From Prosapia bicincta (lineage: Eukaryota; Arthropoda; Insecta; Hemiptera; Cercopidae), in contig JBAIZL010000376.1 of NCBI GenBank assembly GCA_036971475.1, positions 10,086,501 through 10,150,500 on the forward strand: a stretch of 64,000 bases of DNA. Reading direction: 5' to 3'. The notes beneath the pieces were generated by a model that was given only the letters and a program-made list of their open reading frames with translations, was not told the origin of the DNA and ran no database searches. Positions 13,087-55,600 of this stretch are shown here, piece after piece. Position numbers and translations under genes: made by a program. Each line of letters opens with the position of its first letter. Position 1 is the first letter of the stretch.

Positions 13087-14012
13087 TCACGTATTTACAG
13101 TGTGTTTGATTGTAACCTGTCTTGTGGATCGCTCGGCTACCTTAGCTGGCCCCCAATGTGCCTTATCTTTTGCAGGTGTTTACTTAACGAGTCACCTATT
13201 AACACCCTTCGTTACTTAAATTATATTCCTACCCTAATTATAATTACAAAATTTTTATGGAATATTTGAAAACACGAAAAATATAAAAAGAACGACACCG
13301 AACACGACATAACTTGTTAAATTAAAATTACGATTGTTACCGCACATAAACAAGCAACGTCTATTTTGTAGTATTTTCTATGTGGCATCGTTCTTCTTAG
13401 ATTGTATGTATTTTTCAATTATTCGATAGAAATTGGAAGTAATATTTAGGGTGAGAATGTTATTTACTTAGTGGAGATCTAGTACACGACTCATTAAGGT
13501 TACAGCTGCGAGCGACTGCAAATGATAAGCCACATCCGAGCCCAGTCAGCTGAACGGTCCACAACACAAGTTACATCATATAGTCTATAATGCCTAATTA
13601 TTCTTCTTATATCAAGCCCTTTTTTGTCTCGTGTAGACACTTCAATGACGAAGAGTGAAGCCTTAATAAAGAGTTGAGACCTAAGATATTCCTAGCTTCA
13701 CATTCCAGGGCAGATTATAGACCACATACTTATCTGTGCTCTTGGTTTTATATCATAAGATAGCGGTTAAACGATAGAAAAATAACTTTTCTGAAATTTT
13801 TACAGCAGTTTTTGTACTATTTAATATTCGTATAGTTCATAACACTATCTGACTTGACATTAAAGGAGATATTTTGTAAATACTTTTTTATAACAGGAGA
13901 TTCAAAATGGCGGATATCATTGTATACTTTTCAGTAAAGAGATTCAGATTCTTTATTAGTTCATACGAGATCAAGTCCCTTCTCTGGCTACCAGTACCAT
14001 TTATACAGAAAC
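13087..14012. other. Unique AT-rich DNA, nothing recognised
   Basis: No repeats, RNA genes or significant open frames are visible. Confidence 0.5.
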
Positions 14013-14261
14013 TTTATTCAACACTATAATAAATAAACAAAAACCTCTTAACCACAAACTTCCTTTATTTTACCCTTATGTACATTTCAGTTACCAGGTA
14101 ACCATCCTCAGAGGGATAACATGTTATCCCTCTGAGGATGGTTACTTGGTAACTGAAATGTACATAAGGGTAAAATAAAGAAATTTTGTGGTTAATGGGT
14201 TTTTGTGTATTTATTATTAAATTCAACCACAGTATATTCCTAATAAATAGTTTATTCAACA
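14013..14261. mobile_element. Foldback retroposon with hammerhead-like arms, copy 1
   Basis: The element (14024-14250, 227 bp) is bounded by a perfect 11-bp direct repeat, TTTATTCAACA, at 14013-14023 and 14251-14261. It consists of two inverted arms meeting with no spacer (centre between 14121 and 14122). The right arm reads outward: CTGAGGA at 14132-14138, a 6-bp hairpin GGTTAC-TTG-GTAACT, GAAA at 14155-14158, ATGTACAT, then AGGGTAA at 14167-14173. That last block pairs with TTA(T)CCCT at 14124-14131. The left arm carries the same block on the minus strand. The longer right arm continues to an end shared with copy 19519-19798. No protein is encoded. Confidence 0.9.
14122..14173 (+). ncRNA. 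Hammerhead-ribozyme-like motif (type I layout)
   Basis: In order: stem I 5' strand TTATCCCT (14124-14131), core CUGAGGA (14132-14138), one extra U, stem II GGUUAC/GUAACU with a 3-nt loop, core GAA plus A, mini stem III AU-GUAC-AU, H17 = A at 14166, and stem I 3' strand AGGGUAA. The extra U between A9 and stem II departs from the consensus, so activity is uncertain. The predicted cleavage position is after 14166. Confidence 0.45.
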
Positions 14262-15159
14262 AGTAATTAAAAATGGGAAAATATCCAAATTAAAGAGAGA
14301 AAAAACCAATTATCAACACATAATACAGCATTCATATAAATCGCAAATCAAATCGAGCCGACTGATCGATCCGCATAAATATTTAACCGCCTTCCACGTT
14401 CCCTAAAAGAATCTCGCCAAGTGTTATCCGCGGATATTTATTTTTATAGCACTTGGGATTTTACGTCTCTCGTACCATCGTAATGGCTTTTTTTAACAGC
14501 TGTAATCATAAAATTATGTCTAAGGGTGCAACAATAAAACATGTAATATATACAGGAACAGAGTGGGCTTCGTTTTACGACTTACTTTGTTAACTACTGT
14601 TGATAAACTGAAAGCGTGGGTTGTACACTTTGTAATAGTTTTAATTAATCCTTATTTGAAGCAAACATTACTTACAGCGTGACCTATTGGACAGCTGTAA
14701 TTACGGGAGTATTGAGTTATAAGGTATAAAACACTTATTCATATTCTAATTGCAGGCTGCCACTGAGCGTTACAAAGCAATGTACAAGTTTACAACTGAT
14801 TTCCCGTTAAAACGAACCCTAATATTTTGGCGATGGGGGTGCCCACCACATAATAATCTCTCAAATCTAAGTTAAAAAAAACAACATGAATTCTTGTTTT
14901 TACCGGGAAAGCGTGGCGTAGAGAGTGTGGGCAAGTAGTTTAGTTGATTTTGAGTATGGAAATTATGTATAGTTAGTCAGTACCGTCCCACCCAAAAACG
15001 ATCTGCCGTACATAAACCCCTCCTGAAATCCAGCCCTTCACCAAAAGCCCTGATCCCAAATTTCTACCCGAAGCCATTCTCGGTGACAGATGCTGCAAAA
15101 CCTCGGGGGTCACCAAACCCCTACTTTTCTGACTGACTGACTGAGTTAGGCAGAATTGT
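14262..15159. other. Unique DNA, nothing recognised
   Basis: A GC-richer patch at 14990-15130 precedes the single-arm element and might be its 5' part, but nothing in it is recognisable. Confidence 0.4.
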
Positions 15160-15275
15160 GTTATGATTCTGAGGATGGTTACTTGGTAACCGAAATGTAG
15201 GCCTACATCAGGTTAAAATATAAATATTTGTGGTTAGGGTTTTTGTGTATTATTTATTATTATTAAATTTCTTAT
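15160..15275 (+). mobile_element. Single-arm copy of the hammerhead-like foldback family
   Basis: CTGAGGA at about 15165 is followed by a perfect 6-bp hairpin GGTTAC-TTG-GTAACC, GAAA, and then ATGTAGGCCTACAT, which makes a longer stem III than in the other copies. H17 is C (AUC, a classical hammerhead triplet), followed by AGGTTAAAAT. The 3' part matches the outward tail of the other copies (TTTGTGGTTAGGGTTTTTGT, ending in TTATT repeats). No second arm exists. A possible 8-bp direct repeat AAATTTCT (15056 and about 15267) would make a ~200-bp element, but this is weak. Confidence 0.7.
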
Positions 15276-16137
15276 TCTGAATCTTCCATTGCCCATTCTT
15301 GTCTGTTTCAATGATGAATACATTCATTAGAATTTTTTTTCAATCATTCTTCTACGGATCTTCTCTGACAGAAAGATAATGAGTGCATTTTAATTTGTTG
15401 GCTACTACGACATATGCAAACAAAAACTTTTGCAATTTCATAATTATAATCTTATAAATAAATATTTCATTAGAAATGTGACATCTCCAAACAAGTGAAA
15501 ATTAAACCGACTCAAGAGAGTTCTATCAATATGCCCGTAAAAACTCTAATTATAGGCAACCAATTTAAGCGTCTAGTCGAAAAAGATAACCTTTGTACAT
15601 TGCCAGAACACAAACAAGTGTAAGTTAAAATATCCAGCTTGTTAGAAGCTGTTAGAAGATTCAAGAAAAACATCTATAAATATGTGTCTCAAATGATTCG
15701 TTATATATAACCGTATGTGTTTGTCGTAAGAGTCCCTAGCGTCGAGTCCAATTACTTGCTATCGCCGGCGCTTCTTCGAAGAAATTGCCAAGAGTGTTTT
15801 TCAGAAAAGATCTACTGTTGTATGTAATTCTTTACAGAATATGTTTGTACATTCCTGTTTATTTAGGCATTTCTATAAAGTTTTTCTATGAAAAAAGACT
15901 GTTTATTACTAATTAGCTAGTTTATTATCAATATTTTCCTTCATAAATATATATTGTGAATTTATTATACTTATGTATTATTAGTTATGTTATATTACGT
16001 TATAATACTCGTATACTACAATAGGCTAAACTACATTGCATTATAAATTATATAATATTCTCTATAAAGAACAAAGTCCGTTTCTCGGCGAAATTTTTTT
16101 CAAGTAAAATTTCTTTGGGCCCACCTGATACTTTTGT

Positions 16138-16159
16138 GTAAGGTTTTTAAAAACCTTAC
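16138..16159. repeat. Perfect 22-bp palindrome
   Basis: GTAAGGTTTTT (16138-16148) is followed directly by its reverse complement AAAAACCTTAC. It could form a cruciform or hairpin. The flanks (15276-16245) are otherwise unremarkable AT-rich DNA. Confidence 0.8.
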
Positions 16160-16245
16160 AGTTCGCGTCTTCAGAGTTTTGGTTACAACAGATTTACGTT
16201 TAATTAGATGATAATATATAATTTCATTAAACAGCTATTTTTCAA

Positions 16246-16710
16246 ATCTTTCTATTAGTTCACACTGTCCCTATACATATTTATATACCGTTCAAATTTT
16301 CAATCGTTAATAAAATACTTTTTATTCATCTTCTCCGGTTCAAATACATTTTTTTTAAACTCGTGGTTCACACCTGATCTTAATACAGTTTTTTTCAAAT
16401 ATTAATTCACTATTAAAAAAATATTAAGAGAAAAAATATTCATAAAGAGGGCAAGGTATGCAATATACTTATTTCGACTCAATTGCCATAAAATAAGTAA
16501 TAACATATGATTTCATGAAACACATGATTTTATGTTATAGGTTATGCGACAGAACCGCTGTGTTTAACGGATATGTTAAGTTACTTCATTTATATTATTT
16601 GTTGTATATATATGTTTATATAATTATTAAAAAATAACTAAAATAACATTTTCGTTTGTTGACCCAAGTAGGAATTTACTTTGAGACCATTTAGTTTATA
16701 CATTTTGTTA
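16246..16710 (-). repeat. SINE-like repeat family, copy A (decayed)
   Basis: It starts with the family tail (TTCTATTAGTTCACACTGTC), then CGGTTCAAATACATTTTTTT and AATACAGTTTTTTTCAAATA. It ends with the other boundary block, TTTGTTGACCCAAGTAGGAA. These match copies at 22.65, 48.68 and 57.84 kb in the same order. The tRNA-like head found in other copies is not recognisable here. Confidence 0.65.
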
Positions 16711-16954
16711 TGTTATAGTTTGTATTGTATGTTACGTTATAGGCCTACATTATTAATTAAAAATGTTACTCTTCCATATGTTAATTAGTTAGATATAATA
16801 ATTTATATTTCAATAAATCTTACAATAATTAATACAATATAATTATAATGAATTATATAGCCTACTTTTATTTTTCTTTTAATAAAAACGTCCTTACGTT
16901 TCAACTGAATTCGTTAAATAAATTGTTTAATTCAGTCAATTTTAAATATCTATA

Positions 16955-17249
16955 AAGAGGATACATAACTGTATAAAACGAATGTGGCGTAATGTTTAAC
17001 ATGAATAAATGAAACCTCTAAACCACAAATGATTTTTTTTTCTTTTATTTAAAACCTTATGTACATTTCTATTGCCTAGCAATCATCCTCAGAGGTAATT
17101 TACAATAAAAATACAATTTTTTATTGTAAATTAGAAAATTACCTCTGAGGATGATTGCTATGCAATCGAAATGTACATAAGGTTTTAAATAAAAGAAGAA
17201 AGTCATTTGTGTTATAGAGGTTACATTTATTTATGTGAAGAGGATACAT
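16955..17249. mobile_element. Foldback retroposon with hammerhead-like arms, copy 2
   Basis: A perfect 12-bp direct repeat AAGAGGATACAT (16955-16966, 17238-17249) bounds a 271-bp insertion. The inverted arms run from about 16999 and to about 17236. The left arm has an extra leader of about 30 bp. The right arm reads TTACCT, CTGAGGA, T, hairpin GATTGC-TAT-GCAATC (6 of 6 pairs), GAAA, ATGTACATA, AGGTTTTAAAT. Stem I is ACCU/AGGU and stem II differs from copies 1 and 3 by paired changes. The left-arm stem II has one mismatch. The central spacer is AT-rich. Confidence 0.9.
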
Positions 17250-19518
17250 GTTAATAAAGAGGCTCCTTTATTATTACCTACATTAATCAGATTATATCAA
17301 GTTAGTTAATAAATATACATTCTTCAAGCATACATTTTTTGTCAACATGAAGTGTTTTAAACGATACTGATGTTTAACACGATTTATAACTTACTAACGA
17401 TGTAGAAAAACAAAAAGAAGCCTGCGTGTATAAGAAAATGCTACAGTGGTATGAAGGTGGAGAAGAACTACAAGGTGCGTTTGTACCCTGTCAAAAAAAA
17501 ATGTTCCCTTTTAATCTGAAAACATTTTCGGTTAAACTTGAAACACTTACGGAAAGGTAAATTCGTTAAGTTACGCTACTCTCGCCGTAGCAAGTTAGTA
17601 GCTAATTACATGATAAGATTAAGCGGCCTAAATTAAACTGAAACCCCCCCCCCTCCCTTCTGTAACCGCAACAGCCCAACTTGCTTGTCGCCAGGAAACA
17701 ATAAAATCCACTTGCCTTTTCCAATGCGCACCGTAAAGATATAAACCGTTACAAAATCAAAATTTATTACGGTGCCCAAAGCAGATTTCATGGCGCTGTT
17801 ATCCTGAAATGTCTGTCATAATAGTCGCTAATATAACAACATAAATGACGCTATATAGGTCGTGCGTAGTTAACGTTAAGTTAGAGCTTAACGACGTTTG
17901 GTGCAGTTTATAGCCGGGAGTAAAACTTTAATGTCTGGTGTATTTTTGTCGACCAAACCAATAAACACACGCCTTTGCCAGTTTCAACATCTGTTTGTAT
18001 ATACGGTCACAACACACGATAACTACGCGCCATTATAATTCACGTAAAATAAACACTACTTTGTGTTAAATATTTCTGGATTAAATCAACGTTTACGCGG
18101 CTGGCTCGGAGACGTGTTTCAAACAAACACAGAGATCTGAGCGGGTTTGTATTCGCACGGTATCATCTAGTTTACGTGATGATGAAATATAAGCTTCCAA
18201 AACAAACTGCTAAATTAAATAAATGAAAGAGCGTTTCGGTCATGCAACGTACAAAATGTTCGTGTCCTATCGAATCAAAAGAGACTTTGCGAGCGTGTAC
18301 ATAATTCAACCGTCTCATAACGTAGTCAATAACAGATGGCAAAACTCCATGAATTGCAAACAGCGTTTCACGAGACGATTTAACCAAACAAGGAGGATTT
18401 TAATATGTCGTCGTATATTTTGAAAAAGAAAGTCACAGATTAATTAAAATTATTTACGGTTCGTTTCATAATTTTAGATTTCACAACAGTAAATAATGAT
18501 TATTATATTTATTATTATTTATATCATATTATATTACAGTATAATACATTATCATATTGTATTATGCCTTTTATTATATATTACTGCGAGTACGTCTTTT
18601 AATTATTTAATAAGCAGCGAATAGTATAATTGAATATAGTATATTATACAATAGAATATTTTATTTATCGTCTTGTATTATTTAATGAACAATAATATAA
18701 GTTCGGCATATGAAATGAGCTCAACTGTAGCTGTAAATGAAACACCCAACTAACAATAGCTCAATCAAACACTATTGAAATACTATGAACAGATTTTAAA
18801 AGGGTTAACAAAATAATATCCCTTAAGATGAAATAAATGTTCAAACGTTGTTTGAGTAAGTAAATGTTTTTAGTTGCACGATTTGAGTAGGTTTTAGTTT
18901 ACACCTTAATATTATTTAAGCGTAATTTAAAAATAATTAGTGAATGTAATTTCAAATAAAACTGGAGGTTATATAAACTACAAAATGTTGAAAAAAAACT
19001 TACTATTTGAAACATTTTTCAAAAACATAATCTATTTTAATCAATAATTTAAAAAAATTAATTACTTTTACTCATGAATATAAACACTAAAATCAACAGC
19101 CACTATAGGCTCGCCTACAAAATATATTGAAAACAAAACTGAGCTAGCAACCGAGAAAGAGAAGAGAAGGCACGCCTGCTTGTGTGTAGTAGAAAAGGCA
19201 GAGTACGTTACCATAGATTATTATTTTGAGCGATTCCAGTAAAGCCGTATAAGCCATGCGGAATCCGGTGAATAGTACCTTGGAATTGAAAGCGTTTGTA
19301 CCAACATCTGTACACAATGGGAGGCTCTGGAACGTCAGACTAAACGTTGAATTACTGCAAGTTTACTTGTCAGAATAGTACTTCCCGCTTGGTTCTATTT
19401 TACGGCGTTGTTGTCCACTTTACCTGACTGCGCTCACTTCGTTCTCCATTACTCGTACGTATTCAACTTTTGTTTTGACTTTGTCGACAAGTTTATCCAA
19501 CATCAATTACCTTATAGG
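17250..19518. other. Unique DNA, no gene recognised
   Basis: It contains a short C run at about 17645-17656 and extremely AT-rich sequence at 18470-18680. The stretch at 18170-18420 is open on both strands for 66-71 codons with no recognisable motif. Nothing else can be supported. Confidence 0.5.
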
Positions 19519-19798
19519 TAATTTCAGAATTACTATTTATTAGGAATATACTGTAGTTGAACTTAATAATAAATACACAAAAACCTCTTGACCACAAACT
19601 TTCTATATTTTACCTCTATGTACATTTCAGTTACAAAGTAACCATCCTCAGAGGGATAACATACAAAGACTGTCTTTGTATGTTATGCCTCTGAGGATGG
19701 TTACTTTGTAACTGAAATGTACATAAGGGTAAAATATAGAAAGTTTGTGGTCAAGAGGTTTTTGTGTATTTATTATTTATTATTAATTTCAGAATTAT
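19519..19798. mobile_element. Foldback retroposon with hammerhead-like arms, copy 3
   Basis: A perfect 14-bp direct repeat TAATTTCAGAATTA (19519-19532, 19785-19798) bounds a 252-bp insertion (19533-19784). Its long left arm begins CTATTTATTAGGAATATA, exactly the end of the long arm of copy 1 in inverse orientation, so the family has a fixed terminus. The short arm ends in TTATTTATTAT. Both arms carry CTGAGGA, hairpin GGTTAC-TTT-GTAACT, GAAA and ATGTACATA. Right-arm stem I retains AGG/CCU. Confidence 0.92.
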
Positions 19799-19971
19799 AA
19801 AGAAATTTATTTAGAAATTACAAGAAAGTAATATACTTTATACATTTTGTACTTATCAATTTAAAAAAAACACAACTAATTTATTAAAAACTTATTATAT
19901 GATCTGTAACGGCTTAGTGGCTTGTAAGTGGTGGTTTCAAGATAAACTTGTTCAGAAAAATTAATTGAAGT

Positions 19972-20039
19972 ACTTATTACAATATAATATTATAAAATAT
20001 AGAATGTCTGGTCGCAAGTAATTTTATATTGTAATAAGT
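19972..20039. repeat. Short inverted repeat (17-18 bp arms)
   Basis: ACTTATTACAATATAAT (19972-19988) is matched in inverse orientation by ATTTTATATTGTAATAAGT at about 20021-20039, with a loop of about 30 nt. It may be a small foldback remnant. The surrounding 19799-20867 is otherwise unremarkable. Confidence 0.6.
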
Positions 20040-20867
20040 GATTAACAACCAGCTCGTTTTCAAATTTCAACAATGTGTTTTCAAACGACAACAACAATTT
20101 TCGAAATTTAATTATTTGAAGTATTTTACGGTTCTTTTAAGTTAGTTTTGCATAATAAATTTATTAAAGTTTTTTGAACTAACAGTACAAAAGTACTAAT
20201 GGGCTTTTTACTATCGGGTGTTTTAAATCCAAGACACGAGTAACAGCAATGAGAAGAGTCGCTAGCAATGACGTCACTGGCACGGAAAAAGTAGTGTAGA
20301 GCAGCACAGTTAATAAATTCACGGCGCCCGCAAGATTGGCAGTAACTGCACCGTACTAGGACGATAAATGTTACAAATGACAGGATCGGGTTCACAGTAA
20401 ATATCCCAGCGGTGTTTGGCTTTACTACTCTCCTGCCATTAGCTCGACCCCGGGGGATGTCAAGAGGTACGACGCTTAAATTAATCTGCAGTTTATTTAG
20501 CAGGCTTCAACGAGATGGGGATCGATAGCACATGTCTCTTTGCTGTCTTTTGGTACATCAGAAGCACTAAAAGCTAACATTTCTCTTCACACTTTCTTAA
20601 AATTAACTAAAGACAAGAAATTATACATTTTAAGGATTTAGATAAATATAGTCAAGACCACCCAGGATTTGTCATTGAAAAAAAAATTACTGCCTGGTTA
20701 TAAAAATGTAGGACTATTGTTGAAATATTAAGTGGAAACTTATCTTTTCAAATTTAACTGTATCATACCTACAATTTGTATTATTAAAAAAAACTTTTTA
20801 TAACGAAGAAAAGAATAATTTTAACGAGAGTGGTATAGAGGTTATGGCATTATGATTAATAGCATAC

Positions 20868-20935
20868 AGACACCCTCTAGCCACAATAGTTTGTATCAAC
20901 ATTATGTACATTTCGGTTGCAACAATGGTTTGTGG
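20868..20935 (-). mobile_element. Decayed single arm of the hammerhead-like foldback family
   Basis: The order ACCCTCTAGCCACAA, TTGTATCAACATTATGTACA, TTTCGGTTGCAAC follows the left arms of the complete copies (CCTCTTAACCACAAA, TTATGTACATTTC, stem II). The CUGA core is lost. It is an old relic and no target duplication was found. Confidence 0.45.
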
Positions 20936-21949
20936 TAATTTATTATAAATTCACTACACTTTGCCCCTAAGCAGTTATTAACAGCTTGGTAGCTGAAGAT
21001 TGGTTGTCGCCACAGACGAAGGTTACGTGTACCTACCCTGATTTTATTTATTATTCACAACCCTATTTTTCCAAAATGAACAATAACTGTAAGTATGTCC
21101 TGATCACGCAAAAACATTTTTTCAAATTATATAAAATGAGAAAAACCCGTTTTTGAAAAGCGAAAGAGTGAGTATTAAAGATGACGAGACCAAATTTCTA
21201 AACAAACACGGAGACATCCTAATGTTTTTTAAAAAATGAACAATTTTAAAATGCTTGGAAATAATTTTAAAATTAAAGCTATTTCCTGCAGTGTAACGAT
21301 TACGATTCAGAATAATGTAAAGTCTGCAGTAACATTGAAACAACTAAATGGAGCGTCACATAAAACACGATCTGCTACTTGGGGATATCACAGGTTATCC
21401 CTCTCAATATTAGGGCTACGGGGATTACCAGTATTACGCAACTCCCCCATCAAAGGCTTATTGCACATTCAACAATTCCCCCATATTGGCCTATTCCCTA
21501 ATGCGACGCTATTAAAGAACCTTTCTGTAGATTAACGTGTGTTGATGCAAGGGAAAATTATAAATAGCAAACATTCGTCTCGAAGCTACTAGACGCACAA
21601 TGAGAATACTTTTTCGTAGATGTGGCAACAGGGACTGTTTTAGGATCAGGTATATTATCGCCTACATAAGTTAAGAAAGAATTGTGAACAATTGTATAAT
21701 TAAGGTAGAGACATAATCAAACTACCTCTACAATACACACGCGCTGGCAGACGATAGAGGGAGAACATGGTTTCAAGTGTAAAGGGTCGCTTACCTGAAC
21801 TATCGAAGACTTTAAAAATGTCCACCTGCTACACCTCTTTTAAAGAAGATTAAGGAAGAAAGAATTTAGTAGAAGTATTATTATTATTAAAAACTCGGAG
21901 GGACCTTATCGGTGTAGAGCACTTAGCTGTAGCCTTTTTACTCTCTTCC

Positions 21950-22211
21950 CATCCCTATCACAGGACTATCTTAGTGGATAACTACCTCTTTACAGAATCC
22001 AAGTACCCACCTGATACCTCTGGTATACATAGCTGCTAAACAAAACACTTTCTCCTAGCAGCTATCAAAGCAGGGCACTCACAGAGCCTTCCCCTTGGTC
22101 CTTGTCGCATCTCTTGCACACAAGGGACCTACATCTTCCAATTTTGTATTTGAACCCTCTCACATTCCCATAGCCTGTGACCAGCTCTACAGCAACTGAG
22201 TTGAGGTCTAC
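21950..22211 (-). pseudogene. Decayed 3' end of a non-LTR retrotransposon (RNase H tail)
   Basis: Minus-strand translation from about 22211 gives VELVTGYGNVRGFKYKIGRC followed by VCKRCDKDQGEG. After a frameshift it gives ECPALIAARRKCF, a stop, then PEVSGGYLDSVKR, a stop, and LSTKIVL. This order (LvTGHgnvr...kIG, Cys-rich CxxC, hxxCECPAL) is the typical C-terminal end of LINE polyproteins that carry an RNase H-like domain in arthropods. At least one frameshift and several stops make it non-functional. The frame at 22229-22489 just upstream may be the same element, further decayed, but I cannot align it. Confidence 0.6.
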
Positions 22212-22649
22212 TTAAAAAGAGTAGTTATTTAGCGCACAAATCTCCCGAGAAATCCCACAGTACCTTGGATTCGCAGCACCCCAAAGTAGCATTCCATTCT
22301 TCCCTGCACAACCTGTCTATATGTGCCGTTACCCTCTTGCCCCCAATCCTGAGGCGGCATGCACACTGCCCTCAGCAACGGTCCTTGAATTATACACCCT
22401 TGTTTCGAGTAGAAGTAAGGAGAGATCATAATGACCCTCTGGGCCTGGGAATAGGGTAAAGTTATGGCATCTATAACCAAAGTAGTCATGCTCTCAGGGC
22501 GACCAGTCTGTTTTATATTAAATGTAAGTAAGTCTTAGATGGAACGTAGAGCTCCAAAACTGAAAAAAAACTTTTATGTAGTACATTTATTCCGTATAAT
22601 ACATGAAATGTATTTTATACGTAATACATTTACTTTAAGGACTATTCAA

Positions 22650-23151
22650 TACCTTCTATTAGCTCACACTCTCCTTTTAAATATCTAAAAATGTTCAATC
22701 TTAACATAATGTTTTAATTCCTCCAATCGTGTTAAAATAGATTTTTTAAAACCTGTAGTGCATGACAATTGATGGCAATAAATATTTCTCAAATAATTAT
22801 TCATTAATCAAATGCTAAACGCTTATGACTCGTCCGTATTCGAACTGAATGAATCCATGTTTAAAATCCAGCACTCTGGCACTGATCCAATTTTCCCAGA
22901 GCTAGGGATCAGTTATTTAATATATGAAATTACAGGAAAAGAAAGGTTCCTTGCAATAATGAAACATTACAAGAGATGGATAGAATGGGGAATTATAGGC
23001 CACCGTCAGCTTCATAAGTTAAAAACTATAAAAAAGCGAATAAATAGTAACAAAACAAAAATAATAGTCCAACCCCATATATTTTATAGATAAGGAAATG
23101 GAAAACTACATGGAAATTCACTTTCTATTTTACCATCTAATATTGATTCTG

Positions 23152-23248
<97 letters not shown>

Positions 23249-23370
23249 CAGAATCACAATATTAAGTATTAACTGTAATTATAAATTAAAAATTAAGTAA
23301 AGAAATTTTTTTCTTTGTTGACCTCAGTAGAAATTGACATTATTTTATTTTTATATTACTTGTTTATGAA
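22650..23370 (-). repeat. SINE-like repeat family, copy B, with expanded (GT)n
   Basis: Family order is intact: tail CTTCTATTAGCTCACACT, TGACAATTGATGG, ATTATTCATTAAT, a tRNA-like head on the minus strand (22829-22910, with GTTCGAATACGG as B-box), AGGTTCCTTGCAATAATG, CACTTTCTATTTTACCA and the end block TTTCTTTGTTGACCTCAGTA. A long (GT)n/(TA)n run at 23154-23249 replaces the short TGTGTATACATAT of copy E. The 93-codon frame at 22812-23093 is not a gene. Confidence 0.75.
23154..23249. repeat. (GT)n-(TA)n microsatellite inside SINE-like copy B
   Basis: About 42 GT units are followed by about six TA units. The homologous position in copies D and E holds only TATGTATATACATA and TATGTGTATACATA. Confidence 0.98.
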
Positions 23371-23744
23371 AAAAATATATATATTAGGGGCATTTAAATA
23401 TAGTTATGATATGTAGATTAAATCCAAGGGTGGATTTAGTTTATATACAATTTTAATAAAAGAAAAGTATTGGCTTAGGTAACAAAAAGCATGTTTTGAC
23501 ACAGACAAACAAAATTATTATTTTCCCACAATTGCAAACCTTTTTTGTTTGGCCTTGATGGAGTGTTGGCCTTATTTTTATCTTCCGCGAAATACATAGA
23601 ATAAGTTTACAATATTCTTTAAATTTAAAATTTTCAATGTTTGTTTGTTTTTCTATTTATGTTTTGATACTTTGCTTGTGTTGGAAGAGAGCGTTTAGCA
23701 GACTTAAGAACCAGTAAAAATGAAAATAAAAACCAAGTTAATAA

Positions 23745-24625
23745 AAAAAAATTTAAGTAGATTCCTACTGAGGTTAACAAAAGATATTTTTTTTTTTTAT
23801 TTTAGTTACCCCAAAGCACTATTTATGATATTGTGTGGTAACTATTGCAACAGTTTAAGGTTGTACAATGGAGGTTTCGACTACAACCAGATGGGGGAAA
23901 AAAGTTATATACATCTTTGAGAAATATATTGCTAGGTATTGGAAAGTTGGTGCAGTCCCAAGGCGCGCGATTTCGAACTTAAAGATTCACAGTTCGAATC
24001 CGGCTGGACATCACAAATTTTATAATTTAGTTATTGAATAAATATTTGAAAAAACAACTGTATCAACATCAACTGCCATCCACTATAGCTTTAAAAAATA
24101 GATTTGAAAATGATTGGATGAATAAAAGCGTATTTAGTAATGATTCAACATTTGTACAAGATATATAGCTGGAGAGTGTGAGCTAATAGAAGGAATTACA
24201 ATGAAAATATTAGAAAGAACCTCAATACCACAAAAATAATCAAACATAACAAATTAAACAAGTTACTTAAGATTAAACCTTTATGTACATTTCGATGACC
24301 ATGTCATCATCATCAGAGGGTCTTATTACAAAATCACAATCTAGCAAACAAGAAGATACAAACTAGAGTAATCTCTCTCTAGTTTGTATCATTACTTTAG
24401 TTTATGACTTCTTGTTTGCTAGATTGTTATTTTGTAATAAAACCCTCTTATGATAATGACATGGTCATCGAAATGTACATAAGGTTTTAATCTTGAGTAA
24501 CTTGTTTAATTTGTTATTTTTTATTATTTTTGTGGTATTGGGGTTCTTTCCAATATTTTCTTTGTAATATATTCTACCACTGTGCTCTTGATATTGTGTA
24601 ATAGAAGGAATTTAATAATAAAGGC
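23745..24625 (+). repeat. SINE-like repeat family, copy C, interrupted by a foldback insertion
   Basis: This copy is in the opposite orientation to copy B. It starts AAGTAGATTCCTACTGAGGT. A tRNA-like head lies at 23938-24012 (A-box-like TTGGTGCAGTCCC, B-box AGTTCGAATCC at 23991-24001), followed by the family tail: GAATAAATATTTGAAAAAAC, CATCCACTATAG, GATTGGATGAATAAAA, GTGAGCTAATAGAAGGAATT. The tail is split at 24197 by a 401-bp insertion and resumes after 24612. The head keeps both pol III promoter boxes but is not a functional tRNA gene. Confidence 0.75.
24184..24612. mobile_element. Foldback retroposon with hammerhead-like arms, copy 4, inside SINE-like copy C
   Basis: A perfect 14-bp duplication TAATAGAAGGAATT (24184-24197, 24599-24612) bounds a 401-bp insertion. 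The same 14 bp is single in copy E, which gives the empty site. The left arm (minus strand, 24270-24330) has a canonical CUGAUGA, U, stem II GAUGAC-AUG-GUCAUC (6 of 6), GAAA and AUGUACAUA. The right arm (24433-24490) has CUUAUGA, a core mutation, but keeps stem I AAAAC(C)CU/AGGUUUU. The right arm carries a leader of about 40 bp absent from the left. The centre has a further inverted pair (GATACAAACTAGAG). Confidence 0.93.
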
Positions 24626-27600
24626 ATAAACGCGAAAAAACTAACCTAACCTTTACAGCTTGTTAATATTTCTACAATTTTTCATCATAATAAACATCTG
24701 AAGCATAAAAATAACAAGAGTTTAGTAAACAATACATTTATAGTTTAAAATGACTCTGTTATTAACGATCGATATCAGAAAACGTCCTTCAATGTAACTT
24801 TGAGAAAAGCTGATTTTAAACAAGTAATACGAATTTATCTTTTAAAAATACAGATCTACACCTAACGAAAAACTTTATAAACATGTTCTACGATATATTT
24901 TAATTTTCATCAACATATAGATTCCAACAAATTTCACTATAACCAACACAATATAAACAAAATCGCAAGCGCTTCGTAAAAATAACACTACCACCCAACA
25001 AAAACCTCTACGCTAAAACCAACAGCGGCGCGTTGAAATGGAAAACATCTCATTTTGCCGCAAATCCCCGTAAAACGCCGTCCCAGTAAATCCCGCTTAC
25101 ACGGAGTAAATCTCCGCACAGTGTGAATTGTCGTGTCCGCCAATAAGAACCCAGAGAAAGACAGTGCTCGGTGAAGATTTTTTGGTTGACCGCAGTTTGA
25201 GCGAGGTTATGAAAGAAGTAGCGAGGGTGTAGTAATGCGACGGGTAGGGAAGGGGCGTGGAAGCGTGAAAGCGTTCAGTTGAACACTTTAGCTCTACGGC
25301 GCCCCTTTCCCGACCTGTTACCATAACAACGACAAGAGAGAGGTTCCAAATATTCTTTTAACGAGACGAGAACGCGACGTTTTACAACATAAAAGGAAAT
25401 GAACGCGAGAATCCTTCTACTAACTAAATACAAGTATTCACTGTTAACTGGGTAATTAGCGATACTGACGAGAAGAGAGAGCCAAGAGACAAATTGCTCA
25501 AGAACTAAACAGCTTCCAGAGAAGTTAAAACCTAATTAGCAATTTTAATTATATTCTTAAACAGCACAAGGTGTTTAGCAAAGTAGGTGTTTATAGTAAT
25601 GCTCAACAGTAATGCTACAAAAACAAGATTTCATATAATTATTAAAACGACCCCAAGAAATTTTACCACTTAATTTTTTCCTGGTGAAAAACCAATTGTG
25701 ATTATTATCGCGAATCAACATTTAAGACGAAAACGGCAATATTTTAGATAACACACAATTTAAATCAAACAAAAATATACAAAACAAACATAACCTAAAC
25801 GTAACAGTAATAACATAAAATTTGTATATGTAACAATAAATATATAACAAAAAGGACAAACAACATTAAAACCACACTAATTGAAATTTATTTAGGTTAC
25901 ATTAACTTCTCCTAATACCTATTAGAACAAAGGTAAACATGAAAGAAGATTTTAGTAATATTTTTTAAGAAAATTTAAATAAGAAAAAACTACAGCGAAG
26001 CTCTGAAAGGCTGTAAACATTACATGTGTGGTTAAAACGTTTGTCCAAACAAAATTCAATTAAAATTAAGAAATTAATACTTAAATTGTAGATATTCAGT
26101 TAAGTGTTAATTATCACGACGAAACGAAAACGTGCTACAACAATAATGTTAAAACCGGAAGTTATGAAACATAAATTATAGAGTTTTTAAAAAAATATTG
26201 CAGTTGCTCACAAACACTCAAAATTTTTTTTAAAAATATACGATTCCAAAAATTTAGAAATACAAAATAGTTAAATAAGAGCGAACACCAAGTCACAATC
26301 AATAACTTTTCTTTCATACACGTTTCTCAACAGTACTCTGTCATCATCAATGGTGAGTATAAATACACAACTTTTATTAAACTAAATCAGTTATAAATAG
26401 ACATGATGATGACTATCATTGAAACGTTCATAGGAACATAAATTATTGATTTTGACTCTGGTGTTCGTTGTTATCTATTACCTTTGCTAATAAGCATAAC
26501 TCCAATTTTAGTACCCATAGAAAAGTTTAAAACTCGAAATACCAAACTAAAGAAAACAAATGACAGAAAAAAAGTTTTAAAATAAGTTAATGTTAAATTT
26601 CGTGAAACATATTTTAATGAAGTGAAAATAAGGAAACAGTTTTCGCAAAACGGAGGCGAGGTCCCTCTATCTCAACAGCTATTTCGATAAACTGTACTGT
26701 AAAATAAAAATTGAATAAAATAAAAAAACTACTTCAACAGCGTATTAAATAAAAATTAAATACACGCCCACAAAAACATAAAGACTTTCATAATTGTTAA
26801 CGTAAAATATTTTATTTTTATTAAATTTATTTAATTTTTATTTGGATTCCAAAACACGTCACACAAAAGTATTTAGGAGCACCATAAGAAAATTGTGGAA
26901 ACGTATTTTCTGTTGGAAACTTAGAAGAAAAGGAGTGAAATATTTTGCAAGGATTATCATATCAGTCAGACATGTATCATATTTTCCTTGCACGCCCTAA
27001 CCCCAAAGAAAGACATTGACTTTTCCGCCCTTTCCGACTCTTGCGATTTATTAATTAGCCACCATTTCTAGAGGAGTGAAGGAGAGATAAGATCAGCCAG
27101 TTTAAACGCCGAGGGTGTGTGGTTCATCACGTGGTACAATAGAAAGGGTGTTAAATAATGAACAGGGGCGAGGAAGTGCTTACCCCGCGTCCACAGAAAA
27201 GGGAGTTTATCAGATGACAAGGCTACTTTTAAAGCCTCTAAGTACAGTCAGTTAAACAAAACGTGTTTGTTTTTTATTTATGGTCAGAGTATTTATTGTA
27301 AAAGCTAAAATGATTACTCATAGTATTTGGAACAGAACTATTAAAAAACTATAAAAACGTTACAGAGATTCAATAAAACATAACATTTTGTCTTGAACTA
27401 GAAATGTCAAAACTCGTGTTATTCAACACACTGGAGCTCCGCAACCCAGCCGCCTGAGCCATGACGATCGTTCATTTGTCACACAACATGACTGTACCTG
27501 ATGAACGTTCATCGATACAAGGTTAGAAATTAAAACAAATAGCATTTAAACATCGACGTAATGTATCGCTATACTTAGTGCAAGTGCGTTTCGTTAGATC

Positions 27601-49335: not shown

Positions 49336-51084
49336 TTAACGTTTCGTTTTAGTTGAATTTATTACTTTTATCAGTTTTGGGTGAACCATAATCATTCCAA
49401 ATATTGGCAGTCCAAATATTTCTGAAAGAAAGTGCCTGTACAGTAATCTTCTTAGAGGTTGTGGAGGTCTTCGACAAGGAGTTTTAGTACGTTATAGTCA
49501 ACGTTAGAAACTTTGTATGTACTTTAAAAGATTGTTACGAGGTTACGTTACACTCAGTATTGCTAAAGATAGTAAAAATATATAAAACAAATGATAAAAT
49601 TAAGTTCAACATGGAATTGTTTCTTTTTAAAAGGTCAATAACAACGTAATTGGCCAGATTATTCCCTAATATGTTACCCCTACGTAATCCTTTGATTTCT
49701 ATTTAATTACGAGTAGAAACAAGTAATTAAATACGGGAATTATAGCACAATCTATTTCCTCTGTCCGCTTCTGAGAATCTACGAAGTCAGTCTCGCAATT
49801 CTGCCGCTCAAGGCACTGCTATAACACGTTTTGTAGTGTTCCTTCTTGGTGCAGCATATTATAAAATGATTGTAACTTACACGAAATTTCTGTTACAATA
49901 TAAAGAATGACGTATTTTCTCTCGAAGATTTCTGAATGCAAAACATGGCGACTAATACCAAACAGCTTTGGTTTAAAAATTATTGGATGTTGTTAAATCA
50001 TTATCAAATGCAATTTTCAACATGTTCAAAAATTTCGTATGTTTAATTAAATTGTGTAATAAGCTATGATTTAATACAAATCTGTTTTTATTACTCATAA
50101 ATAATGATACTTTCTATATTGTACAATGTAGTAAGATGCAGGTATAAGAAAAGTTATGTTGTCACAGTACGTTATTTGTAAATATAGTTCTAATTTGCTC
50201 GACACGTTTATGGTTATGTTCACTTTATAAGGCCTACAACCTCTCGTAACCTTATTTAGAAAATGGTTATTAAATCTTGCCAGCGCGTACATAATAAAAA
50301 TAGAAGAGCTATATAGTAACAACGAAAATAAATCTTTTAAAAATCTTTTAAAAAAACAGGATTATACCTTATGTGATTTAACCATAATGCAAGGCACTAT
50401 AACTATAAAGAAAACGACATGATGCAAAGTTAAGAAGCGGCCACGATACACATATATGCCAAATACTGTAATCACTATAAACAGCCAAGTACAAGATCCA
50501 ATTATCGGACACCAAGGGCTTCAAGTGTCAACTGGTAAAATTAAAAATTGTACATTCAGTGGCAATCGCTTCCCAATCTAACCATGTCTAAACTCCCAAT
50601 CCCAACCAGTGTATACTGAACAAAACCCACATCCACTGATTGCGCTTTATTTGCAATGTTATGATTAGTAGCGGCCAAGATTGCGACCGGAAATTTGATG
50701 ACTACCCGGAAATAGATGGCCGGAAGTGTGCGACTATAACGGAACTTATGTAAACCTGTAATCATTCCGGCTGGATGATGTGGCTGTCTATTTGCCTACA
50801 TATAATTTTACTAATTTATAGCAACAGTTTGTCTATAAATGAAGGGCGACCTCTCTCCTCGCGTCAATATGGTTTTATTTAGAAATTATTTCAACAGCGC
50901 ATACGTGTTAAACGAAGAAATGTTTTACGTATATACTAAGGAAATACAAGGTGATCCAGTTTTATGTCACTATGACATCTATGCTGTTATCAAGGCATCG
51001 TAGCCCGTTTCGCAAAATCCAAGTCAATCGTAACTTCCCTATATCATCTGAGCCCTTTTGGGACGCCTCTCTATTCCCGTTAAG
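49336..51084. other. Unique DNA, nothing recognised
   Basis: AT-rich sequence without repeats. The sequence from 50556 to 50770 is less AT-rich, with a 69-codon minus frame that resembles nothing known. Confidence 0.5.
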
Positions 51085-52160
51085 GAGTAGGAGTAACTTT
51101 AAACACATTAGCGATGCGCATAAACCGTTAGGTGTAAAGGATAAGCTCCTCTTGAAATACCCGTTAGAGAGTAGGAGTAACTTCAAACACATTAGCGTTG
51201 CGCATAAACCGTTAGGTGTAAAGGATAAGCTCCTCTTGAAATACCCGTTAGAGAGTAGGAGTAACTTCAAACACATTAGCGTTGCGCATAAACCGTTAGG
51301 TGTAAAGGATAAGCTCCTCTTGAAATACCCGTTAGAGAGTAGGAGTAACTTCAAACACATTAGCGTTGCGCATAAACCGTTAGGTGTAAAGGATAAGCTC
51401 CTCTTGAAATACCCGTTAGAGAGTAGGAGTAACTTCAAACACATTAGCGTTGCGCATAAACCGTTGGGTGTAAAGGATAAGCTCCTCTTGAAATACCCGT
51501 TAGAGAGTAGGTGAACTTCAAACACATTAGCGATGCGCATAAACAGTTAGGTGTAAATGAAAAGCCCCTCTTAAAATAAGCGTTAGAGAGTAGGTGAACT
51601 TCAAACACATTAGCGATGCGCATAAACCGTTAGGTGTAAAGGATAAGCTCCTCTTGAAATACCCGTTAGAGAGTAGGGGTAACTTCAAACACATTAGCGT
51701 TGCGCATAAACCGTTAGGTGTAAAGGATGAGCCCCTCTTAAAATAACCGTTAGAGAGTAGGTATAATTTTAAACACTTTAGCGATGCGCATAAACCGTTA
51801 GGTGTAAAGGATGAGCCCCTCTTAAAATAACCGTTAGAGAGTAGGTGTAATTTTAAACACTTTAGCGATGCGCATAAACCGTTAGGTGTAAAGGATGAGC
51901 CCCTCTTAAAATAACCGTTAGAGAGTACGTGTAATTTTAAACACTTTAGCGATGCGCATAAACCGTTAGGTGTAAAGGATGAGCCCCTCTTAAAATAACC
52001 GTTAGAGAGTAGGTGTAATTTTAAACATTTTAGCGATGCGCATAAACCGTTAGGTGTAAAGGATGAGCCCCTCTTAAAATACCCGTTAGAGAGTAGGTAT
52101 AATTTTAAACACTTTAGCGATGCGCATAAACCTTTAGGTGTAAAGGATAAGTCCGACTAC
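51085..52160. repeat. 84-bp satellite, about 12.8 copies, two subtypes
   Basis: The GAGTAG landmark or its variant falls at 51085, 51169, 51253, 51337, 51421, 51505, 51588, 51671, 51755, 51839, 51923, 52007 and 52091. The period is 84 bp, apart from two 83-bp units. Copies up to 51754 mostly carry AACTTCAAACACATTAGCG and AAGCTCCTCTTGAAA; those from 51755 carry TTTTAAACACTTTAGCG and GAGCCCCTCTTAAAA. Because 84 is divisible by three, the first five units are open on both strands (a 28-residue repeat on each). The 1-bp deletion near 51510 ends this, and no start, signal or domain supports a protein. Confidence 0.97.
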
Positions 52161-53719: not shown

Positions 53720-55600
53720 AAAGGATCTATATGTTACCCGATTATATTATAGGTGTCTACCTGCTACCCGATTAAAGTATATGGGTTTAATTTCTACCCG
53801 ATTGTAATATAGGTTTCTAACTTCTACTCTATTATAGTATACGCGTGTAAATGTCATTTGATTGTAGTATAGAGGTCTACCTGCTACCCCATTATAGTAT
53901 AGGTTTCTACCTTCTACTCTATTATAGTATACGTGTGTAAATGTTATTTGGTTGTAGTATAGAGGTCTACCTGTTACCTGATTATAGTATAGAGGTCTAC
54001 CTGCTACCCCATTATAGTATAGGTTTCTACCTGCTACTCGATTATAGTATGTGTGTGTATATATTCCCTGATTGTAGTATAGCGGTCTACCTGCTACTCC
54101 ATTATAGTATAGGTGTCTACCTACTACCCAATTAAAGTATATGGATCTAATTTCTACCCGATTGTAGTATAGAGGTCTACCTGTTACCTGATTATAGTAT
54201 AGCGGTCTACCTGCTATATCATTATAATATAGGTTTCTACCTGCTACTCGATTATAGTATGTGTGTGTATATATTCCCTGATTGTAGTATAGCGGTCTAC
54301 CTGCTATATCATTATAATATAGGTTTCTACCTGCTACTCGATTATAGTATGTGTGGGTATATATTCCCTGGTTGTAGTATAGCGGTCTACCTGCTACCCT
54401 ATTATAGTATAGGCTTCTACCTGCTACTCGATTATAGTATGTGTGTGTAAAAGGTACCAGGTTTAGGTATAGAGGTTTACCTGCAACCAAGTTATGATAT
54501 AGGTGTCTACCTTATACAGGGTTGTAGTGTATATATCTACCTGCTACATGGTTAAATGTGTTTACCTCCTACTCGCTTGTTAAATAAGTGTCTACCTGCT
54601 TCGTACTTGTAGTATGGGGTTTACCTCTTACCCGATTATAGTTTGGATGTTAAACTGTTATCCAATCGTAGTATATGTATCTACCTGCTTGTAATATACG
54701 TGTCTACCTGCTACCAGGGTATGTTATAGGTGATTACCAGATACACGGTTGTAATGTATATACACTATCTACCTGCTACTCGATTTAGTATAGGTGCTTC
54801 ACTGTTACTCTGTCGTATTGTAGAACCTGTTACTGGTTTATAGTGCGTGTCTACCTACTACACGCTTGTAATATATGTCTACCAGTTATCCGTTTATAAT
54901 ATAATAGGTCTACCTGCTACCCGGTTGTAGTATGTGTCTACCTGACATTGGTTTGTATTGTGTTTACCTACTATCCTCTTATAATATAGATGTATACCTG
55001 CTAATAAAGTATATTATAGGTGTCTAATTTTTTCCCAGTTGTAGTTTAGGTATGTACCTACTACCCGATCATAGTATACGTGTATACCTGCCATCGGTTT
55101 CTAATGTGTGTCTACCTGCTAACCGGGTATATGCGTTTACCTGTTACAAGGTTGCAGTGTAGGTATCTACCTGCTACTCAGTTACACATGTCTACTTGCT
55201 ATCGGATTGTAATATTTGTCTACTAGGTATCCGGGCATATTATAGGTGTCTACCTGTTATTCGGTTGTAGTGTAGGTATCTACTTGCTTATAGTATATGT
55301 GTTTACCTGCTATCCACTAGTAATATGTATCTACCTGCTACCCGCTTGTTAATATATGTGACTAACTACTCTCAGGGTATATTATACGTGTTTACCTTTA
55401 ACCCAGTTGTAATGTAACTATTTGTTTGCTACCTGTTATGGTATGTGTATACCTGCCACCGACTTGTAATAAGTGTCTAGCTGCTACTCGTCGACATATA
55501 ATGTAATGCGTCTTGCTGCTACCAAGGTACATTAAATGTCTCTACATTTTACCCGGATCCAGTGTAGGTATCTACCCACTTGTATATGCTACCAGGTATT
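53720..55600. repeat. 30-bp minisatellite with higher-order units, decaying rightward
   Basis: Variants of GTCTACCTGCTACCCGATTA then TAGTATAG recur every 30 bp exactly from about 53740 to 54490. Triplets of variants repeat as 90-bp blocks (AGGTTTCTAC at 54231 and 54321, AGGCTTCTAC at 54411; also at 54021). After 54490 the spacing becomes irregular (about 22-32 bp) and the motif degrades to about 55600. The 247-codon minus-strand frame (53747-54490) is 10-residue repeats (YYNRVAGRPL-like) produced by the 30-bp period, with no other support. Confidence 0.95.

Follow-up and report, generated by a model that had tools for sequence, protein, structure and literature searches.

Non-coding foldbacks with hammerhead-like arms in Prosapia bicincta, a probable product of a Penelope-like reverse transcriptase priming on both ends of a cut target

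Introduction

How can an element that consists of a single pair of inverted arms, codes for no protein and carries a ribozyme-like motif in its arms be copied through a genome? The question is raised by a 64,000-nt stretch of the genome of Prosapia bicincta (Hemiptera, Cercopidae; assembly GCA_036971475.1, contig JBAIZL010000376.1, positions 10086501-10150500), hereafter the window, which holds four such foldbacks. All coordinates below are window positions, and the genome-wide searches cover the 2.207 Gb assembly. An earlier note, drawn from the letters of the window, had described a family of retroposed foldbacks whose arms contain hammerhead-like motifs. Our analysis indicates that the foldbacks are probably non-coding, head-to-head pairs of hammerhead arms copied by the reverse transcriptase (RT) of a Penelope-like element (PLE), which primes on both ends of the cut target. 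The more specific joint statement, that the palindrome is rebuilt at every insertion by two-ended target-primed reverse transcription and that truncated copies record cleavage by the hammerhead in vivo at the predicted base, is tentative and has somewhat less than an even chance of being right in full.

Foldback insertions in the window

The window contains four complete inverted repeats of 227-401 bp, every one of them bounded by target-site duplications (TSDs) of 11-14 bp; the four foldbacks are finished insertions. The retroposed family of the earlier note is supported, and the positions it gave for the four complete copies, for the partial one at 15.2 kb and for H17 of copy 1 (14166) are correct. 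At 20.9 kb there is a remnant, which keeps only GAAAUGUACAUA of the shared motif and lacks the CUGA core. A TSD was looked for around these two partial copies and none was found. No stop-to-stop open reading frame (ORF) of at least 90 amino acids overlaps the foldbacks, which are thus non-autonomous and not full PLEs with a telomerase-like RT and GIY-YIG ORF. The features are as follows.

14013..14023, no strand: left TSD of copy 1, direct repeat TTTATTCAACA
14024..14250, plus strand: copy 1, complete foldback of the family 3 type with shortened centre and the tail on the right arm, TSD TTTATTCAACA
14073..14115, minus strand: hammerhead motif of the left arm of copy 1, predicted cut after 14077 (minus strand)
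14128..14170, plus strand: hammerhead motif of the right arm of copy 1, predicted cut after 14166
14219..14250, plus strand: tail of copy 1, right arm, about 32 nt
14251..14261, no strand: right TSD of copy 1, direct repeat TTTATTCAACA
15165..15213, plus strand: copy 5, solo arm with hammerhead motif and long palindromic stem III
16967..17237, minus strand: copy 2, complete foldback of family 2 with the tail on the left arm, TSD AAGAGGATACAT at 16955-16966 and 17238-17249
16967..16997, minus strand: tail of copy 2, left arm, about 31 nt
17054..17096, minus strand: hammerhead motif of the left arm of copy 2, mismatch at the stem II base, predicted cut after 17058
17141..17183, plus strand: hammerhead motif of the right arm of copy 2, predicted cut after 17179
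19533..19783, minus strand: copy 3, complete foldback of family 3 with the tail on the left arm, TSD TAATTTCAGAATTA at 19519-19532 and 19784-19797
19533..19564, minus strand: tail of copy 3, left arm, about 32 nt
19613..19655, minus strand: hammerhead motif of the left arm of copy 3, predicted cut after 19617
19687..19729, plus strand: hammerhead motif of the right arm of copy 3, predicted cut after 19725
20903..20914, minus strand: copy 6, remnant with GAAAUGUACAUA only, without the CUGA core
24198..24598, plus strand: copy 4, complete foldback of a family other than 2 or 3 with the tail on the right arm, TSD TAATAGAAGGAATT at 24184-24197 and 24599-24612
24278..24320, minus strand: hammerhead motif of the left arm of copy 4, predicted cut after 24282
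24443..24485, plus strand: degenerate hammerhead motif of the right arm of copy 4, core CUUAUGA
24566..24598, plus strand: tail of copy 4, right arm, about 33 nt, from the arm register and the element end

Each of the four copies thus has a single tail of about 31-33 nt. The same asymmetry recurs genome-wide in the two families for which the 40 best-scoring places were scored, with a scoring that favours complete copies. Copy 3 as a query (family 3) gave 1747 first-look candidates and copy 2 (family 2, which has diverged from copy 3 to about 68% identity over 212 bp) gave 1711; in both families 40/40 best places (copy 3 itself included in family 3) match on both strands, i.e., are whole foldbacks. 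The opposite-strand match begins at query base 23-37 in 39/40 places of family 3 (at 11 in the remaining one) and at base 24-40 in 40/40 places of family 2, so the outermost part of the query is present once, on the long one of two unequal arms. Exact flanking direct repeats of at least 11 bp were found automatically in 17/22 copies of family 3, one of them inside an AT run, and in 13/20 rows of family 2, where L046 and L061 have common flanks; outside the one AT run the longest exact repeats measure 8 to 15 bp. One place, L062:1-701, consists of a foldback followed by two head-to-tail units of arm plus tail, joined at the recurrent inner end GTATTTTT.

Inverted pLTR-like (pseudo-long-terminal-repeat-like) arms head-to-head, a TSD and a tail of 30-40 bp on one arm make the foldbacks a non-autonomous derivative of a known PLE architecture, and the kinship with PLEs suspected in the earlier note is supported. 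In Adineta vaga, PLEs are reported with head-to-head pLTRs, palindromic junctions, TSDs of 8-10 bp and an optional 31-bp tail on one inverted pLTR; the foldbacks of P. bicincta differ from this description in that they have no ORF, in that one inverted arm pair of 227-401 bp is the whole element and in that two families have about 1,700 candidates each (PMC3846280). The note had also called a non-autonomous, head-to-head foldback unusual. According to the same report the head-to-head order as such is a known habit of PLEs (PMC3846280), and what is unusual is the existence of ORF-less families at high copy number.

Mirrored variants and the origin of the palindrome

If a foldback is copied as a unit, its arms are expected to drift apart and arm-specific variants to be inherited. 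Family 3 has a different pattern. Among its 22 copies, four variants that are present in 3, 4, 6 and 7 copies occur in both arms in 20/20 cases; one further variant is mirrored in L030 and found only on the right in L031, and at one site there is one case on the left and one on the right. In the raw tabulation of variants in at least two copies, 24 are in both arms, 5 in the left only and 17 in the right only; those confined to one arm fall mostly in the first three columns (copy 1, L037, L038) and in the last two, which run into flanking DNA. Variants of single copies are divided into 7 in both arms, 15 left and 20 right, as expected for changes that occurred after insertion. Sister arms have 34 differences in total compared to 69.2 in random pairing (0/20000 permutations). 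In family 2 (19 copies, L061 being left out because its flanks are identical to those of L046) the effect is weaker, with 84 differences compared to 111.8 (0/20000).

The centres point in the same direction. Most family 3 centres read GAC-T-GTC, while others have 11 extra bases, other short inserts or truncations, and in family 2 they vary in most copies around the recurrent arm end GTATTTTTATTG. Since the latter is also the join of the head-to-tail units in L062, it is likely to be the 5' end of the RNA. From the mirrored variants of family 3 and the differing centres, the palindrome seems to be rebuilt at each insertion rather than inherited. The likeness of the two arms of one copy is thus no evidence for an RNA fold, since the arms look like sister copies made at insertion.

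Conserved fold of the arms

From the centre outward, each arm is ordered as the 5' strand of stem I, CUGANGA, U, the stem II hairpin, GAAA, AUGUACAU, H17 and the 3' strand of stem I. The palindrome that forms stem III is AUGUACAU in copies 1-4 and the longer AUGUAGGCCUACAU in the 15.2 kb copy. The stem II pairings listed in the earlier note (GGUUAC/GUAACU, GGUUAC/GUAACC, GAUUGC/GCAAUC and GAUGAC/GUCAUC) are correct, and its statement that all four complete copies share the motif holds for 7/8 arms, in which, as in copy 5, the core is intact; the right arm of copy 4 has the broken core CUUAUGA, and stem II is mismatched at its base in the left arm of copy 2.

The U between A9 and stem II had been regarded as a departure from the consensus that puts catalysis in doubt. 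In a scan of 284 kb around the window for CUGANGA-stem II-GAAA, which permitted 0 or 1 base at this place, 20 motifs were found compared to 1, 3, 1, 2 and 1 in five first-order Markov sequences; 17 of the 20 have one base there, U in 16 of the 17. The extra base is a local rule and not a defect of these copies. Because stem II does not directly follow A9, we call the arms a minimal variant of the type I hammerhead. The minimal type I hammerheads of PLEs and Terminons are likewise described with a very short or absent stem III and as probably acting as dimers (PMC7761336, PMC6155905); the base after A9, usually U, would be the difference here. In the window copies the U forms an AUG with A9 and the following G. 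An AUG at the start of stem II is also reported for the hammerhead of the Poseidon PLE of Anolis (PAc), whose ORF begins at the corresponding place (PMC11167929).

Stems I and II covary. The covariation score of 10 aligned motifs is 0.430, whereas shuffled alignments gave 0.205 +/- 0.033 (0/500 scored as high) and slid partners 0.056-0.111. The rows of the alignment are not independent of each other: copies 1, 3 and L024 belong to one family, and copy 2 contributes both of its arms. Of all cells, 86.7% are paired, and two-sided changes occur in 7/12 pairs (16 such cells); the number of further pair types is not above that of the shuffles (208/500). Single-strand folding energies of the ten motifs are no better than those of shuffled sequences (z between -0.9 and 1.3), and the support for an RNA fold is covariation, not stability. 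On this ground the proposal that the arms of these retroposed foldbacks carry a selected RNA fold is supported.

A search against Rfam gave no gathering match in the window and no hammerhead among the matches up to E 10 in 13500-25200, which comprise microRNA hairpin families and one small RNA family, the microRNA-family matches reflecting the palindromes. A whole-genome search with RF00008 gave 0 matches and is uninformative, as 14 controls were equally silent, and a degenerate hammerhead pattern had 0 matches in a viral contig set. The palindromic stem III suits a pairing of two RNAs, and small PLE hammerheads reportedly cleave as dimers.

Another hammerhead family lies beyond the window (positions 129853/129967, 220892/220986 and 246103, counted from the window start). 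There an AAGCUU palindrome replaces stem III and stem II has 7 bp; the pairs 129853/129967 and 220892/220986 are head-to-head.

Short foldbacks at the predicted cut site

Short palindromes were searched genome-wide with anchors 2 nt downstream of the first base after H17 and at most 30 bases between the anchors. The family 3 search found 18 places compared to 0 for the reversed control pattern, and the family 2 search found 23 compared to 1. Before counting, three family 3 rows with repeated centres (among them L076, which is in a different place from its twin), one family 2 row and three control centres were dropped. The pairs L065/L069 and L067/L080 have common flanks.

In the 15 distinct family 3 centres (30 arms), the arms start at 0 (A1.1, the base that follows UACAUA) in 10 cases, -1 in 5, -2 in 7, -3 in 2, -4 in 1, -15 in 1 and +2 in 4. 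In family 2 (22 distinct places, 44 arms, including one CCT|AGG centre without spacer) they start at 0 in 15, -1 in 8, -2 in 4, -3 in 5, +1 in 2 and +2 in 10. Starts from -2 to 0 therefore account for 22/30 and 27/44 arms, respectively, compared to 18.7% under a crude uniform model. The control anchored upstream and open to more subfamilies gave 9 places, 6 of them distinct (12 arms). Both arms start at most 5 nt from the anchor in 13/15 places of family 3 and 22/22 of family 2, compared to 2/6 in this control (Fisher 0.031 and 0.0007).

These mini-foldbacks resemble primary insertions. Of the 18 in family 3, 17 have exactly one tail and 11 have an automatically found TSD of 9-14 bp. Their sister arms have 38 differences in total compared to 52.6 in random pairing (2/20000) over the first 43 columns of 14/15 insertions (L070 dropped; L069, L080 and L076 removed before), and 8/20000 permutations reached the observed value over unequal lengths. 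Rare short copies with arms that start at the predicted cut site or close to it hint that cleavage in vivo may have left a footprint. Since the sampled full-length copies extend across this site, insertion does not require cleavage, which agrees with the reported insertion of Anolis RNAs with mutant hammerheads.

PLE genes as candidate helpers

At least 86 places with GIY-YIG are listed in the genome, with 150 of 23557 candidates scored. Five were chosen for their long open frames: fragments of four have GIY-YIG, one of them also RVT_1, and L082 had no Pfam match. A PLE fragment of this genome had 16 relatives in a protein search, the named ones from the leafhopper Cuerna arida and the moth Achroia grisella. 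Hammerheads of the same build (CUGAUGAU, stem II GAUGAC/GUCAUU) are present at 3/5 of the places read, and at 4/5 the coding part lies within or beside inverted repeats of 131-2252 bp, so coding PLEs of this genome also occur head-to-head. L084:1506-3727 is a 2.2 kb near-palindrome, 92% self-complementary, with a PLE endonuclease coding sequence; a foldback copy of the copy 1/3 type lies nearby in L084. At the places read (5 of the 86 listed), a similarity to copy 4 was seen over about 40 bp of the hammerhead. A motif scan of 284 kb for signatures of PLE RT and GIY-YIG gave only one unconvincing YxDD-like match.

Copying mechanism and its alternatives

Read along the genomic strands, the element has at each outer edge the counterpart of an RNA 3' end and in its centre the counterparts of two RNA 5' ends. 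Two target-primed reverse transcriptions, one per side of a staggered cut, would give this arrangement. We hypothesize that transcription starts near the centre and runs outward through the tail-bearing arm, as suggested by the recurrent inner arm end and the tandem units that join there, with the RNA 5' end near AGUCUUUG in family 3 and GUAUUUUU in family 2. The RNA would be bound by a PLE protein (the genome does contain genes with GIY-YIG and RT domains), and a staggered cut of the target would leave the overhangs that become the observed duplications. Both 3' ends of the target could then prime cDNA, one at an outer and one at an inner start site about 32 nt apart, and this use of one site per end would leave one tail per copy, the pattern that is observed. 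In the single-sequence fold of copy 1 a UGUGGU/ACCACA-type stem-loop spans the region of the start sites; it is less clear in others. The two antisense cDNAs, which as a rule would derive from the same RNA or the same source, would come together where each has copied the 5' end, and their joining would add 0 to about 13 bases. Less securely than the rest, the hammerhead may cut the RNA in the cell part of the time, and the shortened 3' product, still insertable, would yield mini-foldbacks that begin at the cut site. A PLE protein of Anolis is reported to cut and extend both target strands in vitro, starting at two sites that define the tail (PMC11167929), as would be the case here; PAc differs in having an ORF and in that its RNA-seq has no ends at the cut site, while some insertions end at it in P. 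bicincta (PMC11167929).

Several observations weigh against parts of this scheme. None of the five PLE places read carries family 2 or 3 arm sequence as its own pLTR, i.e., the direct helper was not identified; with no autonomous PLE with matching arms found, the helper is assigned by its class, likely as a PLE-type enzyme. The 40 scored places per family are the best-scoring ones and biased to complete foldbacks. Mirroring is incomplete in family 2, where variants in at least three copies are divided into 17 in both arms, 11 left only and 7 right only, and in three copies of this family (copy 2 of the window, L043 and L052) the arms look like different subfamilies, i.e., two templates, as expected if two RNA molecules can serve. 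In the Anolis report, the choice of start site shows no strand difference in vitro, as opposed to the nearly absolute rule of one tail per copy here; the enzyme also inserted RNA with mutant hammerheads; and the hammerhead cut only with protein present, with no RNA-seq reads ending at the cut site (PMC11167929). As to the mini-foldbacks, the arm starts are the longest possible readings, a junction base may count for both arms, and the search itself may favour arms near the anchor. In the upstream control, which is small and not clean, 5/12 arms also start 2-4 nt from the anchor; relative to it, the single-arm counts of 22/30 and 27/44 are not significant (Fisher 0.078 and 0.33). The family 2 mini-foldbacks are pattern matches, and two of these places lie 1.1 kb apart with similar centres.

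The single-arm counts also favour an origin of the cut-site mini-foldbacks that involves no cleavage and leaves the rest of the scheme standing, namely an alternative transcription start at the cut site, palindrome-driven central deletions or an effect of search anchoring. Central deletion of palindromes is common, and in the mini-foldbacks L075 and L077 one arm runs on into the hammerhead. This joint alternative, the promoter start included as one part, has a substantial chance of being correct, if not quite an even one. It fits less well with the excess over the control, in either family, of places where both arms are short, with the 18 family 3 places from the pattern of one subfamily as opposed to 9 for a control open to more, and with the one-sided tails and TSDs that the mini-foldbacks have in common with primary insertions. 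Cleavage in vivo would thus be the more likely but unproven reading of these copies, given the weak control. A retrozyme of the animal non-LTR (non-long-terminal-repeat) type, with tandem hammerhead repeats that move via circular RNA, is suggested by the small size, the absence of coding sequence, the type I hammerhead and the head-to-tail units of L062. Yet the scored copies (40 per family) are inverted pairs, not direct tandem repeats, only L062 has added tandem units, and these join at the inner arm end, not at the ribozyme cut site, which makes such an origin highly improbable. Metazoan retrozymes are described as short non-autonomous elements with type I hammerheads like the foldbacks, but as direct tandem repeats spread as circular RNA, unlike these inverted pairs (PMC7229834).

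The origin of the second arm has other possible explanations as well. Self-priming on an antisense template has been proposed for head-to-head PLEs (PMC3846280): the RT would copy one RNA, and the second arm would arise when the cDNA end folds on itself or the antisense RNA primes itself. Such snapping back accounts for mirrored variants and palindromic centres, but the commonest centre spacer of family 3 is 1 nt and some copies have none. A spacer of 0-1 nt is too short for the loop of a self-primed hairpin. Because of these spacers and the two-template arms of copy 2, L043 and L052, self-priming is the less likely course and we regard it as unlikely; the two start sites, one per arm, are also better fitted by two priming events. 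Inverted repeats, TSDs and the high copy number would equally suit a DNA transposon of the foldback or MITE (miniature inverted-repeat transposable element) type, in which a transposase would copy the whole foldback at once and the hammerhead would be a mere passenger. However, its ends should not differ as they do here by the one tail, the flanking repeats vary in length (8 to 15 bp outside one AT run), the shared variants of family 3 are mirrored between arms, the centres vary and head-to-tail units occur; a transposase is therefore barely credible as the copying agent.

If insertions do record cleavage products, any genome with many copies could reveal ribozyme cleavage, with no need for RNA. 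The foldbacks moreover provide many finished products of what appears to be PLE integration, with two priming events side by side, making the question of head-to-head insertion directly testable. A literature search, which did not extend to three primary PLE and hammerhead papers, found no description of ORF-less foldbacks at high copy number, of palindrome rebuilding read from mirrored variants or of possible cleavage footprints, and their novelty in print is uncertain.

Other repeats of the window

A dispersed repeat with AGTGTGAGCTAATAGAAGGAATT or close variants of it is present at 16241-16283, 22645-22687 and 24159-24197, and copy 4 adjoins or sits inside one of its copies. Apart from the foldbacks, repeated sequence with near-identical open frames on the minus strand was observed at 187-1306, and tandem repeats that are open in several frames occupy 50912-52156 and 53747-54511.

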